From IMG/VR virus record IMGVR_UViG_3300050821_005761, positions 1-42,322 of that record: a stretch of 42,322 bases of DNA; one strand, 5' to 3'. Source of the DNA: a virus. The position numbers and the translations under genes are program-made. Below, piece after piece: positions 30,351 through 38,323 of this stretch. Below the pieces are notes generated by a model. That model was not told where the DNA came from, did not search any database, and worked only from the letters and a program-made list of their open reading frames with translations. Position 1 is the first letter of the stretch. The number at the start of each line of letters is the position of its first letter.

Positions 30351-31367
30351 TCAGAACGGCGCTCCTCCCGTTATCCCTTGGATCTGGATGCCAGTGCTCG
30401 GCTTAGAGCAAACCAAATTGAGCGCAGTGAGCGATAGGCCCACGCTCGCAATCTGGCCTTGCGGGATCGTCGAATACCAGCCGGTCCACGCAAAATTTGC
30501 GTCTTCATGGATCACCAACGTGATGTATTTGCTATTGAATCCATAGGCAGTGCCCTGTGGGCAATTCAAGTCAAAGAACAGGGGGGTGTCGCCAAGCAAC
30601 AGGCCTCGGAAGCCACTATTGACGGGGTCATCCTTGCCCCAACGACTTGACGGGTCGTTGTTATACCTTTCGACGCTCATGAAATCCGTCAACAAAGTCG
30701 TCCAGTCCTCGACGGACATCACGACGAAGTCGAGCGCCTCGCCGCCGCTGTTCTTCACCGCCGCCAACATGTTGGGAATGAAGGCCGCCCTCGTCAAAAT
30801 GGCGCCGGCCGCCGGCGTCACCAGGGCTTGCCAGTCTGGATAAGTGGCCCGGCTTAAGCCGCCGAAGGTCGGTGCGGTGGTCGCGTTGCCGTAGGCGTCC
30901 TGAAGGCTGAACATCTGCAGCACGTTGGCCACCGGCGGGCCAAACAGGGCAGTGGTGAGCGCCTGCAGGCTCGAGTTCTTCAGGTCGTTGAGCTTGAGCA
31001 TGAGGCGCGAGGCGACCGCGATCGCGTCCTGGGTCACCAGCTGCTCGAGGCCGAGCGAGCTCACCGGCGTCGCCAGGCAACACATGTTAAATTCCGCATT
31101 GACCGTCGCGGCGACGTCCTGGGGCAGGTTGAACTGGCCGGCGGGCCCAATCCATGAGCTCTGGACGTACTGCCCGGTCTGCACCGGCTGGGTGTACGGC
31201 GAGACGCCGCCAGACGCGCGAATCGCGTTGCGTAGCAACAGGGCAAGCAGGGGATTCTGCTTGTAGATGAGAATCACGACCATCTGGGCGAACACCCGAC
31301 GGACAGTCGCCTGGAGCTCGAGGCCGATCGGACCCGAGGGGATGATGCCAGCGCCCAAGATAGGCAT
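30351..31367 (-). CDS. Major capsid protein
   Basis: 338 residues. Upstream GAGGAAGG gives the start. Sequence features include a helical N-terminal arm (GLELQATVRRVFAQMVVIL), a central SSLQALTTALFGPP helix, FVVMSVEDWTTLL and a C-terminal beta region (YITLVIHEDANFAWTGWYS). It follows the scaffold candidate and lies in the standard place after portal, consistent with an HK97-fold capsid subunit. There is no N-terminal cleaved domain visible, so maturation by a protease is not suggested. Confidence 0.72.
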   Translation of the reverse strand: MPILGAGIIPSGPIGLELQATVRRVFAQMVVILIYKQNPLLALLLRNAIRASGGVSPYTQPVQTGQYVQSSWIGPAGQFNLPQDVAATVNAEFNMCCLATPVSSLGLEQLVTQDAIAVASRLMLKLNDLKNSSLQALTTALFGPPVANVLQMFSLQDAYGNATTAPTFGGLSRATYPDWQALVTPAAGAILTRAAFIPNMLAAVKNSGGEALDFVVMSVEDWTTLLTDFMSVERYNNDPSSRWGKDDPVNSGFRGLLLGDTPLFFDLNCPQGTAYGFNSKYITLVIHEDANFAWTGWYSTIPQGQIASVGLSLTALNLVCSKPSTGIQIQGITGGAPF

Positions 31368-31373
31368 GGGAAA

Positions 31374-31913
31374 TTACCTTCCTCTCGCGCTCTCCTGATC
31401 CTTGTGGATTGCGCCTAAAATCTCCTTTCGTCCCCACGCTTCCGGGTCTTTGGCGATCTCGGCAAAATTTGGCGCGCTCTCATGGTGCCAAAAGCCGGTG
31501 TCATATGTCGGTTCCGACGTCTTTGGGTTCTTAGCTGCCCTGTATCGGGCCGCGACTTCGTAGTCGCCGACGCCCTTGTCTTGCATCCACCCCTCGAGGT
31601 CTTTCATTCCCTCGTCGGTGAATCCGTACTCATCCTGGACCTGTTTGCGCTGGGTCCGCCACTTCTCGTCCTCGCGCGCTCGCTGCGCGGCGGCCTCGGC
31701 GTCCGATCGCTGCTTGCGGTCGGCGTCGATCTGCGCCTGCACCCGGTCCTCGATATCGAGATCCGGGATGGCGAGCGTCGGGTACTTTTTCTTGATCAGC
31801 CTTTTGGCTTCTTTGGTCAGCGCCGGGTCGTTGTAGATCGATTCGACGAAGTCGGCGGTGATCCGCTTGTTCTGCAGGTAGGCGTATTCCTCGTCCGAAA
31901 CCGTGCGCGGCAT
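31374..31913 (-). CDS. Probable scaffolding protein
   Basis: 179 residues, highly charged and helical, with long coiled-coil segments (DRVQAQIDADRKQRSDAEAA and EKWRTQRKQVQDEYG). Immediately upstream of the capsid gene with GGAG before its ATG. Size, charge and position match phage scaffolds that guide capsid assembly. Confidence 0.65.
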   Translation of the reverse strand: MPRTVSDEEYAYLQNKRITADFVESIYNDPALTKEAKRLIKKKYPTLAIPDLDIEDRVQAQIDADRKQRSDAEAAAQRAREDEKWRTQRKQVQDEYGFTDEGMKDLEGWMQDKGVGDYEVAARYRAAKNPKTSEPTYDTGFWHHESAPNFAEIAKDPEAWGRKEILGAIHKDQESARGR

Positions 31914-31995: not shown

Positions 31996-32181
31996 TCAGT
32001 TGTTGTTGGTCTTACCAACAATATTGGGTTGCAGCGGCACCCCGCCCTCGGGCTTCGGCACCACCTTCGGGATCGCGCCCCACTCGCTCACTTCGGACTG
32101 GGTGTCGACCTGCAGGACGGTGCGAGGCGGCGTCTCAGGCGGCGAAGTGATCGGCGGATCGTAGCTTCGATTTTGAGCCAT
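31996..32181 (-). CDS. Small hypothetical protein after the PEP-CTERM gene
   Basis: 61 residues, with a near-perfect TAGGAGGT SD before ATG 32181. Polar and Pro-rich (ITSPPETPPRTVLQVDTQSE), ending NIVGKTNNN. Its first 16 codons overlap the 3-prime end of the PEP-CTERM gene in another frame. Function unknown. Confidence 0.6.
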   Translation of the reverse strand: MAQNRSYDPPITSPPETPPRTVLQVDTQSEVSEWGAIPKVVPKPEGGVPLQPNIVGKTNNN

Positions 32182-32800
32182 GTTTACCTCCTACCCAAAG
32201 CAGAAGACCGAAACCGAGGAGCATCAGCGCCCAGGTCGAGGGCTCGGGAACGCCGGTCGTCAGCTGGATCGAGCCGCCGAACGACTGCCGCGGCGCTGTG
32301 AAGTCCACGGCGAATTGAGTTTCGTCCGAAGTGAACGCCCCAGTCGCCGCCGAAACCGGCCCAAAAGCGCCGTCGAGCAGCGCGACCGGGAAGGTGTGCG
32401 AAGCGAGCAACCCGCCATTGGCGAAAGTGCTTTCGGTCGTCGGGCCGGGATCGTTGGTCAGCCCGTTAACCGTAAACGTGCTGAGCGTGTTGCCGGTCCC
32501 GGCGATGGCGCTTTGCAGGATGTCGACCGTCAGCGTGTGCGAGCCCGTAAAGCCCACCGCTGCAGTGGCGTCGAGCGTGACGCTTGATAGGTCCGCATTC
32601 GGCAGGATCGGCGAGCCTTGAGCGTTGATGGTGATGTTGGCGAAATTCGCATCATTGGCGGTGAGCGAAGCAGCGCCCGTCGTGATCCCGGTGACGTTGT
32701 CGATCAGCGTCCCGTTGTCGAAAACTTCGATTTGCAGCGTCGCCGCCGCTGGCGTGGCGAGCGAGGCGAGAACTGCGCTGGCAAGAAGCAATCTGTTCAT
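32135..32800 (-). CDS. PEP-CTERM secreted protein
   Basis: 221 residues, AGGGG upstream. A signal peptide (MNRLLLASAVLASLATPAAA, cleavage near 20-21) leads a beta-rich domain with many Thr/Asn/Gly. The C-terminus is VPEPSTWALMLLGFGLLLW (184-202) followed by a basic patch (GGKHGSKSKLR): the PEP-CTERM sorting tag, in which PEP, a hydrophobic helix and a basic tail are recognised by exosortase in the host envelope. Such proteins are exported and anchored or matured at the cell surface of biofilm-forming bacteria. It lies inside the head operon between portal/scaffold genes, unusual for a phage. The terminal 16 codons overlap the downstream gene, so part of the basic tail is provided by captured sequence. 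Confidence 0.85.
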   Translation of the reverse strand: MNRLLLASAVLASLATPAAATLQIEVFDNGTLIDNVTGITTGAASLTANDANFANITINAQGSPILPNADLSSVTLDATAAVGFTGSHTLTVDILQSAIAGTGNTLSTFTVNGLTNDPGPTTESTFANGGLLASHTFPVALLDGAFGPVSAATGAFTSDETQFAVDFTAPRQSFGGSIQLTTGVPEPSTWALMLLGFGLLLWVGGKHGSKSKLRSADHFAA

Positions 32801-32837: not shown

Positions 32838-33356
32838 TCACGACCCAGGCAGGGGCGTCGATGGCATCGGCGCCTGCGCTGGTCCCTGCGCGCCGTCGCC
32901 GCCGCCCTGTTGGCCGCCGCCGGCGCCCGCCGACTGCATCCGCGCCAGCATCATGTTCTTGATCGTCTGGCGCAGCTGGTCCTGCCAGGCGGTCTTCTGC
33001 ACCCCAGCGCCGGCCCCGAACGCGCCGGTGCCGCCGAGGTGCCGCGACAGCTTGCTTGCGCTCTGCAGGGCGTCGCGGTGCAACGGCGAACCGGGCGGCA
33101 AGCCGAGCGCGGCGTGCTGGATCATCTGGATCGCCTGGTTCAGGAGCGTCATGGAGTCGGCCATGTTGCCGGGACCAGGGGCCGAGATTTGCGGGCCCAT
33201 CTTGTTGCGGGCGAGGAAGGCGAGAGCGCCGCCAGGCGCGGGAGGACCGCCTGGGGCGCCGCCGCCACCTGGAGGACCGCCACCGCCCGGAGGCGCGCCT
33301 GGAGATTGGCCCTGCCCTAGTGAGGGATCGTCGTCTGTTACGTCGCCGTTCGCCAT
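32838..33356 (-). CDS. Gly/Pro-rich head-operon protein
   Basis: 172 residues. A Gly/Pro-rich N-terminus (GGGGPPGGGGAPGGPPAPGG), a folded helical core (NMADSMTLLNQAIQMIQHAA, then LHRDALQSASKLSRHLGG) and a second helix (WQDQLRQTIKNMMLARM). Proteins with this SKLSKH-type core often follow the portal gene in related podophages. Probably portal-associated or assembly factor. Confidence 0.6.
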   Translation of the reverse strand: MANGDVTDDDPSLGQGQSPGAPPGGGGPPGGGGAPGGPPAPGGALAFLARNKMGPQISAPGPGNMADSMTLLNQAIQMIQHAALGLPPGSPLHRDALQSASKLSRHLGGTGAFGAGAGVQKTAWQDQLRQTIKNMMLARMQSAGAGGGQQGGGDGAQGPAQAPMPSTPLPGS

Positions 33357-33472: not shown

Positions 33473-35197
33473 CTACTTCGGTTTTCGTCCACCGCCGGCG
33501 GCGGCGCCGCGCCGGCCGCCGACCGGGAAGCCCAGGACGCCCTTGACGAGCTCCTCCGTCTTCTCCTCTTTCGCCGCCGCCGCCTGGGCCTTCTGCCGCT
33601 GGCGCAAGCGCGCGAGCAGGAGCTCGGCGCCGGGCGGGTGCAGCATATGGATTAAGTCTTCGCTGTCGATCGCGCCTGCTCGCGCCAAAGCGATTGCAAC
33701 TTGCCTGTTATCCTCAGCAAAAGCCGGCGACGCTGAGTGCGAGTCAACGGCGACTTGGAATCCGCTGGGGAGTTGGGAGAGGAGGAATTCGGTACCCGTC
33801 TCCGTTTTGTAGACGAGCGCGTCCATGGCTTGCATGACGCGGAGGGCGAGGTAACCGGTGTCGGCCAGTTGTCGCTCAATTCGAGCGGCCTGATCGATAA
33901 GGTGGGGTGATGAAGTTCTAACCAGAGTCTGAGCGTGGACTCCAGCGCGGACGCCGCTTTCGCCTTGTCCCGACATGATCGGGCTGAAGCCAGAAGCTTC
34001 ATCAAACAGGCCGAAAATAAACTCGAGTTCTTGGAGATAGTTTTCCGGCGGCGGTTCCAGTAGTTTCGCGGCCTTTGCGTTAGGATTAGGGTCGTTGATG
34101 AACCCCCCTTCATTGATAATTTTATAGTATTGTTCTTCGGTGATGGAGGTGAATCCGCTGAATACTTGGGGTGCATTGACGTTCCTATCCCACATGACTT
34201 TGATGTCGCGCAGTCTCTTGTTCAACAGATCCTGCAACATCTGCACATCGGCGATGATCGACCGGCCCCAGAAATAGCCAGGCGTGTTCTGGCCCTGGAC
34301 CTTGACGAAGCTTGACTTGCCGGGGACGCGCGACAGGTTGCGCCGGGTGTCGTCGCCCTCGAGCACGATGTCGGGGTAGATCACCTGCATGGTCGTCCAG
34401 TCGCCGTCGCGCTCGCGATCGCGAATCCAGATTTCGCAATGGCGCACCGTCGGCTGGAACCGCCGCTGGGGTCTCCAGGGGGTGGGGACCGGAAACACGT
34501 TGACAATACCGGCGGCCGAGCTCGGGGCGTCGCCGACGTCACCAAGCGGTTGCAAGCCCCCGACCACCATTTGGTGAAAATAACTCTGGTCCTCCTCGTC
34601 CCGCTCGGTGGGCCGCGATTCGTCGATGCGCGCCAGGAGCTCGTCCCGCCGCGGGTGCTCGGACAACATCGCGCGCAGTCGCGACATGGTCGGGAACGAG
34701 ACGTGGCAGAACGCCTCCTGCTCGTCCAAGGAGACGGTCGTCTCGTTCAGCACGCCAAAGTTCTGGGGATGCACGGGTCCGACCCGGAACGAGCCGCCGT
34801 CGCCGTCGGGGATCACTTTGAGCAGCTGGCACCCGTTGACCAAGGCCCAGACGACCGCCTCGGAGAACATCACGTCGGCGTCGGTCTGCCGAAAGTCGGT
34901 CGACAGCTTCTCGCCGACCAGCTGCGCGCGATCGAGGACGTCCTCGTCCTCGCCGGAATCGTAGACCAGCTGGAATCGGACGTCGGTCGGCTGCATCAAG
35001 AAACCCGCCAATTTGTCGACGAATGGCTTGGTCTTGTTGAAGATCGCCGCCTTATTGTCCATGCAGCCCTGGTAGTAGTATTGGGCGGCCCGGCTGTAGA
35101 CCATCCCGCGCTCCTGGCTCGAGGCCATGCACTCGTCGATGATCTCCTTGATCCAGAGTTCGAGGAAGCCTTCCTTTTTCGGGATCTTGAGCGACAT
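33473..35197 (-). CDS. Portal protein
   Basis: 574 residues. WIKEIIDECMASSQERGMVYS and the LVYDSGEDEDVLDRAQLVGE region at the N-terminus, VHPQNFGVLNETTVSLDEQ in the middle, and a long helical C-terminus (LARLRQRQKAQAAAAKEEKTEEL) with a Gly/Arg tail fit portal proteins of short-tailed phages. It forms the ring at the head vertex through which DNA is packaged. It directly follows the packaging genes. The stretch at about 33650-34160 is visibly A/T-richer than the flanks, which suggests mosaic recombination inside the gene. Confidence 0.75.
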   Translation of the reverse strand: MSLKIPKKEGFLELWIKEIIDECMASSQERGMVYSRAAQYYYQGCMDNKAAIFNKTKPFVDKLAGFLMQPTDVRFQLVYDSGEDEDVLDRAQLVGEKLSTDFRQTDADVMFSEAVVWALVNGCQLLKVIPDGDGGSFRVGPVHPQNFGVLNETTVSLDEQEAFCHVSFPTMSRLRAMLSEHPRRDELLARIDESRPTERDEEDQSYFHQMVVGGLQPLGDVGDAPSSAAGIVNVFPVPTPWRPQRRFQPTVRHCEIWIRDRERDGDWTTMQVIYPDIVLEGDDTRRNLSRVPGKSSFVKVQGQNTPGYFWGRSIIADVQMLQDLLNKRLRDIKVMWDRNVNAPQVFSGFTSITEEQYYKIINEGGFINDPNPNAKAAKLLEPPPENYLQELEFIFGLFDEASGFSPIMSGQGESGVRAGVHAQTLVRTSSPHLIDQAARIERQLADTGYLALRVMQAMDALVYKTETGTEFLLSQLPSGFQVAVDSHSASPAFAEDNRQVAIALARAGAIDSEDLIHMLHPPGAELLLARLRQRQKAQAAAAKEEKTEELVKGVLGFPVGGRRGAAAGGGRKPK

Positions 35198-36176: not shown

Positions 36177-36515
36177 TCAGTCTTTCCAGGTCGCCGCCTT
36201 CACGCTCCACATTTGAGCGCCCTGCGCCTCGGTGATGGCGATCGACCACAGCCGGTGCGCGCCGCTGCCGGCCATGAGCGATTGTCGCTTCATCTCGCAG
36301 AGGTCGATGATCTTCGCGTACTCGCGCTTGAGCTCGTCCACGATCGGATCGCCGCTTGGGTTGAAAGTCAGGCCTACGGCCTTCTCGCCGAAGGTCAGGT
36401 TGTTCCGGCCAATCGGCCTCGGGGACGGCGTCGGCTGCGACTGCACTTCCGGCTCGGTGGGATCGCCAGGCTCGGGTGGATCGGGATCGGGTTTCGGTTG
36501 CGGTGCTTTCGGCAT
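36177..36515 (-). CDS. acb2: Acb2/Tad1-like anti-CBASS cyclic-nucleotide sponge
   Basis: 112 residues from ATG 36515 (TGATG overlap with TerL). After a Pro-rich arm of about 35 residues comes FGEKAVGLTFNPSGDPIVDELK, a helix KREYAKIIDLCEMKRQ, and the signature SIAITEAQGAQMWSVKAATWKD at the C-terminus. This matches the Acb2 family (Vs.4-like), helical oligomers that bind the cyclic nucleotides of host CBASS or Thoeris defence and block signalling. Small size and adjacency to TerL agree with the known setting in other phages. Cyclic-nucleotide binding is known for the family, not shown here. Confidence 0.8.
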   Translation of the reverse strand: MPKAPQPKPDPDPPEPGDPTEPEVQSQPTPSPRPIGRNNLTFGEKAVGLTFNPSGDPIVDELKREYAKIIDLCEMKRQSLMAGSGAHRLWSIAITEAQGAQMWSVKAATWKD

Positions 36516-38323
36516 CAAAATTTCTCCGCTCTGGCTCTCGCGCCCACCTTCGTGTTGATCCGGCGAATGTGCTCCGAGAAGGCGAACGAGAGCACGGTGC
36601 CGGCGTTCTGGGGCGGCGGCTCGCCCTTGACACTATCCCAGGTCAGGTTGCGCGCGATCAGGCCGGCGCGCCGCCACTCGGTCCAGGTATGATGGGCTAA
36701 GACCATCGCGCTGACCAGGTCGTCGTTCTCGCCGGTGTCAGGGCCGGCGCCGATCCAGCCCTCCTCCTCGACGATCGCCTGCATTTGCTGCACCAGGCGG
36801 ATCGAGCGGAACTCCACCCGGCGCAGCATCAGCGAATCGCGGAGCTCCGAATAGACATAGTGCTTATTGTCCTGGTTGGTTTTCCACGCGATGACATTCC
36901 CGGCCCCGCCCAGCGTGTCGGCGCGCCGATACAGGAACCAGCGCACCGCGCCGATCATGTTGAGGATCTGATCCGAATCCTGCTCGGCCTGCAGGATCCC
37001 GCGCTCGGCCAATTGTCGCAGGTTGCGCACCTCGGGCAGGACCGCGGCGCCGACGCCGCTCACCTCGATGTTGGCCAGGTGATCGCGGTAAGCGCCGGCC
37101 AGGTGCGAGAGCACCCAGGCGAACTGGTACGTCAGCGGCTTGTTCGAGGCGAACTCCGCGACTTGAACCAACCGGTCGGCGTAGCAGCGCATGACCTGGA
37201 TGGCGTGGTCGTTAGCGTCCCCCCCGCCGCCCCCCGACGGATCGCCGCCGATGACGTACACGCCCTTTTCCTCGGGGGGCTCCCACACCCGGAGCATCAC
37301 GTCGTCGCGGTTCGTCGTCTGGACGATCCTGGATCCCAGGAAGGCATCCTCGAAGATATACCGGTAGCCCTTGTAGGGCGGCCCTTCCGCTAGACTCTCG
37401 TGGATCTCCAACGTCCGACGGGATGGGAAGAAAGACGAACCCGAGGCGACAAAGCACTGCCTCTCGGTCCACGGATAATGGCGTTCCATGTATTCGGGGG
37501 CGCTGAACTCCGATTCCCGTCTCCACCATGCGACCTGCTCCGGGGTGACCGTCACCTTGTATTGCGCTCGGACCTGTCGCGCGAGCAGAAGCTCGTCGTC
37601 GGTGAGGTGCCCGTCCCAGTAGATCTTGTAGTCGGGGTCTTTCTTGTCGATCGCATAGGTCGGGTTGGCCCAGAACCCGATGAAGATGAACCGCATGTGA
37701 CGGTCCTTCTTCGCTTGCTGGCAGTGGTTGAACCACCAATTGTAGCCGTTGGCGATCGACTCCCAGATATACAGCCGGGACGGATTGAGCCTGGCCAGCG
37801 AGGCCTTCAACGATTCGACGCCGGCGAGCGATTTCCACTGCGCGCACTCGGTCGCGTGCATCATGTTGAGCGCGCGGCTCGCTCCCAGGTCCGGATTGGT
37901 CGCCGCCGCCATCAGGTCGATGACCGACCGATTCGCAAACACCATCGAGTTGCGATTGTCCTTGACCAGCCGGTGCTCGGTCGATCGCCACTCGGTCGGC
38001 AGCGTCTCGAGCAGCGCGGCGAAGATCCGGCGCAGGCGCTCGAGGTTGTCGGTGCGGTCGGCGATGATCGCGCCCTGCACGCCGGGGTTGGCCAGCGCCC
38101 AGAATAATTCGATCACGCTGCAGACGGTGGTGATGGCGACCTGCCTGCATTTGAGGACGACGAACTCATGCACGTCCTCCTCGAGGCCTTTCGCCACCGC
38201 ATCGATCACCAGGCGCTGCGACATCCACGGGTCGACGTGGCACCTACCGCCTTCTTTTGTGTCGATTTCAACCGCCGAGAGCAGGGCGTAGATGCCCTGG
38301 CGGATACTAGGCCGTGCCGCCAT
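36515..38323 (-). CDS. terL: Terminase large subunit
   Basis: 602 residues. ATPase domain: variant Walker A VVLKCRQVAITT (55-66), a Walker B-like NMMHATECAQW (153-163). Nuclease domain: VIGGDPSGGGGGD (357-369, D361), NIEVSGVG (418-425, E420) and the C-terminal NDDLVSAM, supplying three acidic metal ligands. TerL pumps DNA into the head and cuts at genome ends. It starts 17 bases inside the preceding small gene. Confidence 0.88.
   Translation of the reverse strand: MAARPSIRQGIYALLSAVEIDTKEGGRCHVDPWMSQRLVIDAVAKGLEEDVHEFVVLKCRQVAITTVCSVIELFWALANPGVQGAIIADRTDNLERLRRIFAALLETLPTEWRSTEHRLVKDNRNSMVFANRSVIDLMAAATNPDLGASRALNMMHATECAQWKSLAGVESLKASLARLNPSRLYIWESIANGYNWWFNHCQQAKKDRHMRFIFIGFWANPTYAIDKKDPDYKIYWDGHLTDDELLLARQVRAQYKVTVTPEQVAWWRRESEFSAPEYMERHYPWTERQCFVASGSSFFPSRRTLEIHESLAEGPPYKGYRYIFEDAFLGSRIVQTTNRDDVMLRVWEPPEEKGVYVIGGDPSGGGGGDANDHAIQVMRCYADRLVQVAEFASNKPLTYQFAWVLSHLAGAYRDHLANIEVSGVGAAVLPEVRNLRQLAERGILQAEQDSDQILNMIGAVRWFLYRRADTLGGAGNVIAWKTNQDNKHYVYSELRDSLMLRRVEFRSIRLVQQMQAIVEEEGWIGAGPDTGENDDLVSAMVLAHHTWTEWRRAGLIARNLTWDSVKGEPPPQNAGTVLSFAFSEHIRRINTKVGARARAEKF

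Follow-up and report, generated by a model that had tools for sequence, protein, structure and literature searches.

The soil phage described here (an IMG/VR virus record of 42,322 bases, called the window below, meaning the whole stretch of DNA that was analysed) encodes a protein of the PEP-CTERM type, a tag that in bacteria accompanies exosortase. The gene is cargo in an exchange slot of the head region, its ectodomain is exchanged between phages and held under purifying selection, and no exosortase is detectable in the viral records searched. On balance, we favour the interpretation that the gene is a mobile surface-display cassette, which would use the exosortase of the host to alter the surface or matrix of the infected cell.

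The tagged protein and its signals

A preliminary description of this DNA had placed a PEP-CTERM protein at 32135-32800, and a minus-strand reading frame of 221 amino acids lies exactly there, with a Shine-Dalgarno sequence (AGGGG) 7 nt upstream of the AUG codon. The gene and the parts of its product are as follows.

32135..32800, minus strand: gene for the PEP-CTERM protein (cargo), 221 aa, ATG start; open reading frame, TIGR02595 and PF07589 over cut-off
32741..32800, minus strand: signal peptide, residues 1-20, MNRLLLASAVLASLATPAAA, Ala at -3 and -1; sequence
32255..32740, minus strand: type-1 ectodomain, residues 21-182, all-beta; AlphaFold2 model, approximate dN/dS ~0.10
32231..32251, minus strand: VPEPSTW motif, residues 184-190; TIGR02595/PF07589, homologues
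32186..32230, minus strand: hydrophobic helix, residues 191-205; sequence, helix 189-210 in the model
32159..32185, minus strand: basic tail KHGSKSKLR, residues 206-214, spanning the start of the next gene; sequence

The signal peptide, which is of the Sec type and was assigned by eye and by a simple rule, has a charged n-region, a hydrophobic core and an A-x-A site, with A18 and A20 unchanged in 90% or more of the 51 homologues. The AlphaFold2 model of the ectodomain (pLDDT 91.5, pTM 0.89) is all-beta and is followed by a C-terminal helix at residues 189-210. Both the signal peptide and the beta-rich domain that had been proposed are thus borne out, the one by the A-x-A conservation among the homologues and the other by the model. 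Foldseek returned generic beta-sandwiches only, with several carbohydrate-binding modules among the top matches, all at TM <0.5; neither a TM-score of at least 0.5 nor sequence homology to a CBM6/35/61-type sandwich was found, the window protein has no match to a Pfam CBM, and the ectodomain has no sequence relative in the PDB. The ectodomain contains no Cys and no Lys, 0.6% Arg, 16.6% Thr, 8.0% Ser and 6.7% Asn, a composition that matches the bias described for PEP-CTERM proteins, namely few basic residues, low Cys and raised Thr/Ser/Asn before the tag (PMC1569441).

The PEP motif, hydrophobic helix and basic cluster at the C-terminus are seen by curated models, with scores of 20.1 bits for TIGR02595 (cut-off 16) and 24.9 bits for PF07589 (cut-off 20.7), and the motif that had been read as a PEP-CTERM tag is therefore one that such models recognise. 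The score for the PEPxxWA-CTERM subtype (NF035944, 32.6 bits) falls narrowly below the cut-off of 35; two homologues, L008 and L077, lie above it with 39.1 bits each, and 49 of the 51 distinct homologues match this model at E<=0.01. The exact VPEPSTW sequence is present in 39 of 51 homologues, substituted in 11 and lost in one (L058), with PEA, PES, PET and PEL among the variants. With one or two positions free to vary, VPExSTW is kept in 50/51 type-1 homologues. In the exceptional type-1 homologue (L058:1339-1995, the same as L084), which sits in the slot described below, VPGPVVGAG replaces the PEP motif, and the hydrophobic stretch and basic tail are still there despite the loss. Nor are the homologues known virion proteins, as no PHROG match was obtained for the protein and no homologue from a cultured phage rose above noise. 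Taken together, the sequence evidence supports the view that the window protein is a genuine PEP-CTERM-type protein, encoded by the phage and acquired.

A cargo slot among the head genes

The gene lies between the portal gene and the scaffold and capsid genes, the position originally given for it, in the following arrangement.

30351..31367, minus strand: major capsid protein, podovirus-type; NF033394, 94.5 bits (cut-off 80)
31374..31913, minus strand: probable scaffold protein, 179 aa, charged; assigned only by its position before the capsid gene
31996..32181, minus strand: conserved 61-aa gene, one border of the slot; mostly 83-97% identical in relatives
32838..33356, minus strand: 172-aa gene, rich in Gly and Pro, following the portal gene and bounding the slot on its other side; found in relatives whether or not they have the cargo gene
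33473..35197, minus strand: portal protein; phrog_156 at E=9.9e-5, P22_portal at E=0.0021, below cut-off
36515..38323, minus strand: terminase large subunit; phrog_2 at E=9.3e-15

No informative family match was obtained for the probable scaffold protein and none at all for the 61-aa gene, which is one of the best-conserved genes in the head region and keeps its level of identity even where the portal is ~70% identical. Tail fibres and an Erf-like annealing protein are encoded elsewhere in the window, and no integrase was recognised among the part of the window proteins that was scanned. A crude consensus match found neither a sigma-70-like promoter nor a minus-strand terminator at the PEP-CTERM gene, such as a moron with its own transcription signals would have.

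Relatives were collected via the capsid protein and via the PEP protein, and the counts that follow are of distinct slots. The two borders, the Gly/Pro-rich post-portal gene and the 61-aa gene, are constant throughout the relatives, and what lies between them is not. Among near relatives (portal identity >=76%), the slot holds a PEP-CTERM gene in 31/36 cases, a degenerate version of the tag in one further case (L058) and other sequence in the remaining 4/36. Among relatives with less similar portals, a PEP-CTERM gene occurs in 2/41; the slot in these more distant phages is mostly nearly empty, with a median length of 156 nt. Moreover, the ectodomains in the slot belong to three unrelated families, type 1 in the window, type 2 in phages such as L085 and type 3 in phages such as L102. 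Presence or absence at one site with conserved borders and unrelated contents is the mark of cargo, and the PEP-CTERM gene is cargo, not a head gene. The proposal that it lies inside the head operon is correct as to location but needs amending, for the site is an exchange slot of that operon and many members of this podophage family are without the gene.

Other occupants of the slot were noted by eye. Reading frames that resemble HNH homing endonucleases are found in five relatives that have no PEP-CTERM gene (L074:6350-6787, L087:6284-6730, L111:6782-7234, L119:5396-5797 and L142:6389-7051), two of which, L074 and L087, belong to the four near relatives with other sequence in the slot, and a frame resembling a GH19-type endolysin adjoins the PEP-CTERM gene in two others (L099:6476-7006 and L100:6476-7006). 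A small Pro/Gly-rich protein (MPFVSGFLR...; L075:5458-6027, L079:5337-5864, L095:6701-7207 and L123:6887-7231) follows several type-3 PEP-CTERM genes and is also present in one relative without such a gene.

The next gene starts with its ATG at 32181, and the PEP-CTERM gene runs past this point to its stop codon at 32135, so that residues K206-R214 are coded over the start of that next gene. The overlap that had been reported is real, but its reading as something expected of an acquired gene does not stand, as the overlap is confined to the window's closest lineage, which comprises L002, L010 and the window itself; elsewhere among the relatives, for instance in L014 and L018, the PEP-CTERM gene stops short of the 61-aa gene. 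The overlap is a secondary feature of local rearrangement, and not a signature of acquisition.

Exchange between phages and selection on the ectodomain

A search with the type-1 protein led to ~65 viral loci that encode a clear relative, for the most part with 78-94% identity, and most of these loci have no head gene in common with the window. The other lineages, which were defined by marker genes, have their own hallmark genes, including terminase, portal, DNA polymerase, tail fibre and a tail-collar domain. Backbones A and E are counted as one lineage because they have a portal (61-62%) and a helicase (57%) in common; no match to this portal was found in the B, C, D or Ap records. On this basis, the search for such proteins across phages that had been suggested places the type-1 ectodomain in at least five lineages besides that of the window, each of which has a second tagged family in some member. 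The distribution is as follows, with 0 for type 1, 2 for type 2, 3 for type 3 and 1 for a further family.

Window lineage: families 0, 2, 3
Lineage A/E: families 0, 1, 2
Lineage B: families 0, 1
Lineage C: families 0, 2
Lineage D: families 0, 1
Lineage Ap: families 0, 1

The place where families substitute for one another is similar within A, in the window lineage and in B, C and Ap, and that of the tagged gene is variable in D and E. Family 1 is large (21 distinct members) and spread over several lineages (L068, L070, L241, L265, L266, L277, L281, L282, L285, L294, L302 and L372).

The same pattern of exchange can be followed within the protein. The type-1 ectodomain of the window lineage is 88% identical to that of other phages and 90% identical inside the lineage, while identity of the signal peptides of type-1 proteins drops from 79% within the window lineage to 53% against other phages, and that of the tails from 43% to 19%. 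Conversely, when different ectodomain families of the window lineage are compared with each other, the ectodomains are 22-23% identical and the signal peptides 58-62%, as against 47% for signal peptides that precede the same ectodomain in other lineages; the tag and tail are without such a contrast (43-46% versus 47%). Between the window and its sister L010, nucleotide identity falls to 78-88% in the ectodomain alone, against 97-100% in the upstream 600 nt and 99% in the tail, which marks an exchange of the ectodomain between the two. These identity patterns therefore indicate that ectodomains are exchanged within a partly lineage-specific frame.

Purifying selection acts on the ectodomain, with a mean pairwise dN/dS of ~0.10, a value that is approximate because dS is near saturation, as compared to 0.18 for the tag and 0.83 for the tail. 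The protein is therefore maintained for a function.

Tagged proteins are not limited to the type-1 family. The DNA pattern VPEP-x-TWA-[ML], run on the viral collection, occurs in at least 120 stretches, and among the matches listed, 114 of ~118 newly fetched loci have a reading frame with the arrangement of the tag by our own rules, 101 of the 114 with a signal-peptide-like start. This tally is an upper view because some contigs may include host DNA. The tagged proteins listed fall into ~50 ectodomain families, four of them large. Five viral contigs (L262, L287, L299, L328 and L350) have two PEP-CTERM-type reading frames with different ectodomains, of ~230-250 and 220-280 aa in four of the five, and the partner in L299 and L350 belongs to family 9.

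A bacterial source of the type-1 ectodomain was not found: a scan of bacterial contigs with a conserved stretch gave, among the matches listed, tag-centred or weak matches, and the ectodomain profile matched nothing in 10 tag-bearing bacterial genomes or in alphaproteobacterial genomes sampled by class (385) and by order (398; the samples may overlap). As a positive control, the profile matched 7/7 viral records. No description of phage-encoded PEP-CTERM proteins was found in the open-access literature searched, a body that leaves most subscription journals outside. One paper on hot-spring viruses includes the family TIGR03118, which has a putative exosortase-interaction domain, in its set of horizontally acquired proteins (PMC11003980).

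Host, function and relation to known systems

The proposed link to an exosortase of the host is in keeping with the distribution of that enzyme. No exosortase (PF09721) was found in 35 viral records, and 19/22 tag-bearing bacterial genomes have one over cut-off, the other three being metagenome-assembled; phages with the tag would therefore need an exosortase-bearing host. By comparison, an exosortase was found in 1/101 Bradyrhizobium-family genomes sampled, namely the tag-bearing starting genome G001. The style of the tag points to Hyphomicrobiales as possible hosts, as do two cultured phages related to lineage A/E, namely Ochrobactrum phage OH and Sinorhizobium phage phiM5. No prophage relatives of the window portal were found in 300 Bradyrhizobium-family genomes.

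In the surface-display interpretation, an exchangeable cargo gene ('moron') would supply the phage's own exosortase substrate, probably late, because it is expressed from the head operon. After Sec-dependent export, the C-terminal helix and basic tail would keep the protein in the inner membrane, and the host exosortase would recognise it at the PEP motif and pass it towards the outer membrane or the exopolysaccharide. There, the beta-sandwich ectodomain may mask or remodel the surface or matrix, the likeliest benefit being superinfection exclusion, or the shielding of progeny from receptors or EPS that infected and lysed cells carry. That the host exosortase recognises the protein is very probable, and a surface or matrix location is likely; masking or exclusion as the purpose is offered more tentatively. 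The preliminary description was right on the tag, and the function it proposed is supported in part. Against this interpretation, expression late in infection leaves little time for the protection of a cell near lysis, the motif is substituted in 11/51 homologues and lost in L058, and the fold matches are weak.

Phage competition is the best fit to a head-operon gene at which no separate promoter was found, to the exchange between lineages and to the varied ectodomains, with modulation of the matrix second. In the latter case, the displayed protein would not exclude other phages but join the exopolysaccharide of the host and change flocculation or biofilm, which would be either loosened to aid dispersal or tightened so that new hosts stay close. 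In bacteria, the formation of flocs and biofilms involves PEP-CTERM proteins (PMC9850573, PMC9012009, PMC12188702), and the best PDB fold matches include several carbohydrate-binding modules. However, those matches are at TM <0.5, and there is no close relative among floc proteins, the floc_PepA model (NF033554) being matched by a few homologues only, and far below cut-off; this role is possible but rather unlikely.

The product might instead be an exosortase decoy, a flood of substrate that leaves PEP-CTERM surface proteins of the host unsorted, among them perhaps phage receptors or components of the matrix; a conserved tag joined to ectodomains that vary without limit is what is expected if only the tag matters. 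Yet the ectodomain is under stronger constraint than the tag or the tail, and the same ectodomain has moved between phage lineages, which is unexpected of a mere carrier; we regard a decoy as improbable. The C-terminus might also be a plain inner-membrane anchor that leaves the protein facing the periplasm, where it could block genome entry by other phages, with exosortase irrelevant. The hydrophobic and basic C-terminus of L058, which has no motif, and the PEA, PES, PET and PEL variants would suit such an anchor, but retention of VPExSTW (variants allowed) in all but one of the type-1 homologues, its presence in unrelated ectodomain families and the company of exosortase that the same tag keeps in bacteria make this a poor prospect. 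That the gene codes for a virion or head-assembly protein of unusual composition, as its place between portal and capsid genes in the window might suggest, is very unlikely given the signal peptide, the lack of a PHROG match and the absence of the gene from 4/36 near and 39/41 other relatives, and this reading was rejected because other lineages carry the type-1 gene away from head genes.

The recurrence of swapped-domain genes across lineages suggests that phages commonly borrow the sorting machinery of the host to place proteins on the cell surface. It is about an even chance that phages whose hosts are soil bacteria with exosortase draw on a common pool of exosortase-tagged surface domains, swappable and kept in dedicated slots; such a display system, present in several lineages, would exploit protein sorting by the host and serve phage competition or control of the matrix. 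Exosortase and PEP-CTERM proteins have so far been studied as a bacterial trait, with substrates mostly without known function, and exchanged cargo in several lineages suggests that phages exploit this sorting pathway. Phage PEP-CTERM proteins offer small, strongly conserved model substrates, and make it testable how infected soil bacteria change their surface. The tag may also serve as a host marker, in that phages that carry it should infect exosortase-positive bacteria.

PEP-CTERM/exosortase and phage cargo genes are each already known separately. With the bacterial PEP-CTERM/exosortase system (EpsH/Xrt) and its PEPxxWA-CTERM subtype (TIGR02595, PF07589, NF035944, PF09721; PMC1569441), the phage proteins have in common the signal peptide, PEP motif, helix and basic tail, and likewise a Cys-poor, Thr/Ser/Asn-rich ectodomain without homologues of known function. 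Unlike their bacterial counterparts, they are encoded in the exchange slots of phages in which no exosortase was found, and the ectodomain is absent from the bacteria sampled. Type-2 phage ectodomains align over nearly the full length of the FxDxF family PEP-CTERM model (NF038126), but fall below its cut-off (48.2 bits for L085, cut-off 50), and the type-1 protein of the window scores only 30.8 bits.

Among the surface proteins that phages encode as morons, in lysogenic conversion or for superinfection exclusion, the lipoprotein Llp of phage T5 is an example that blocks the receptor. As with such proteins, the PEP-CTERM gene is non-essential cargo at a variable site, and its product is predicted to act at the envelope. 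The difference from Llp-type proteins is that a C-terminal exosortase signal replaces the lipoprotein or plain membrane anchor, and that the phage is apparently virulent.
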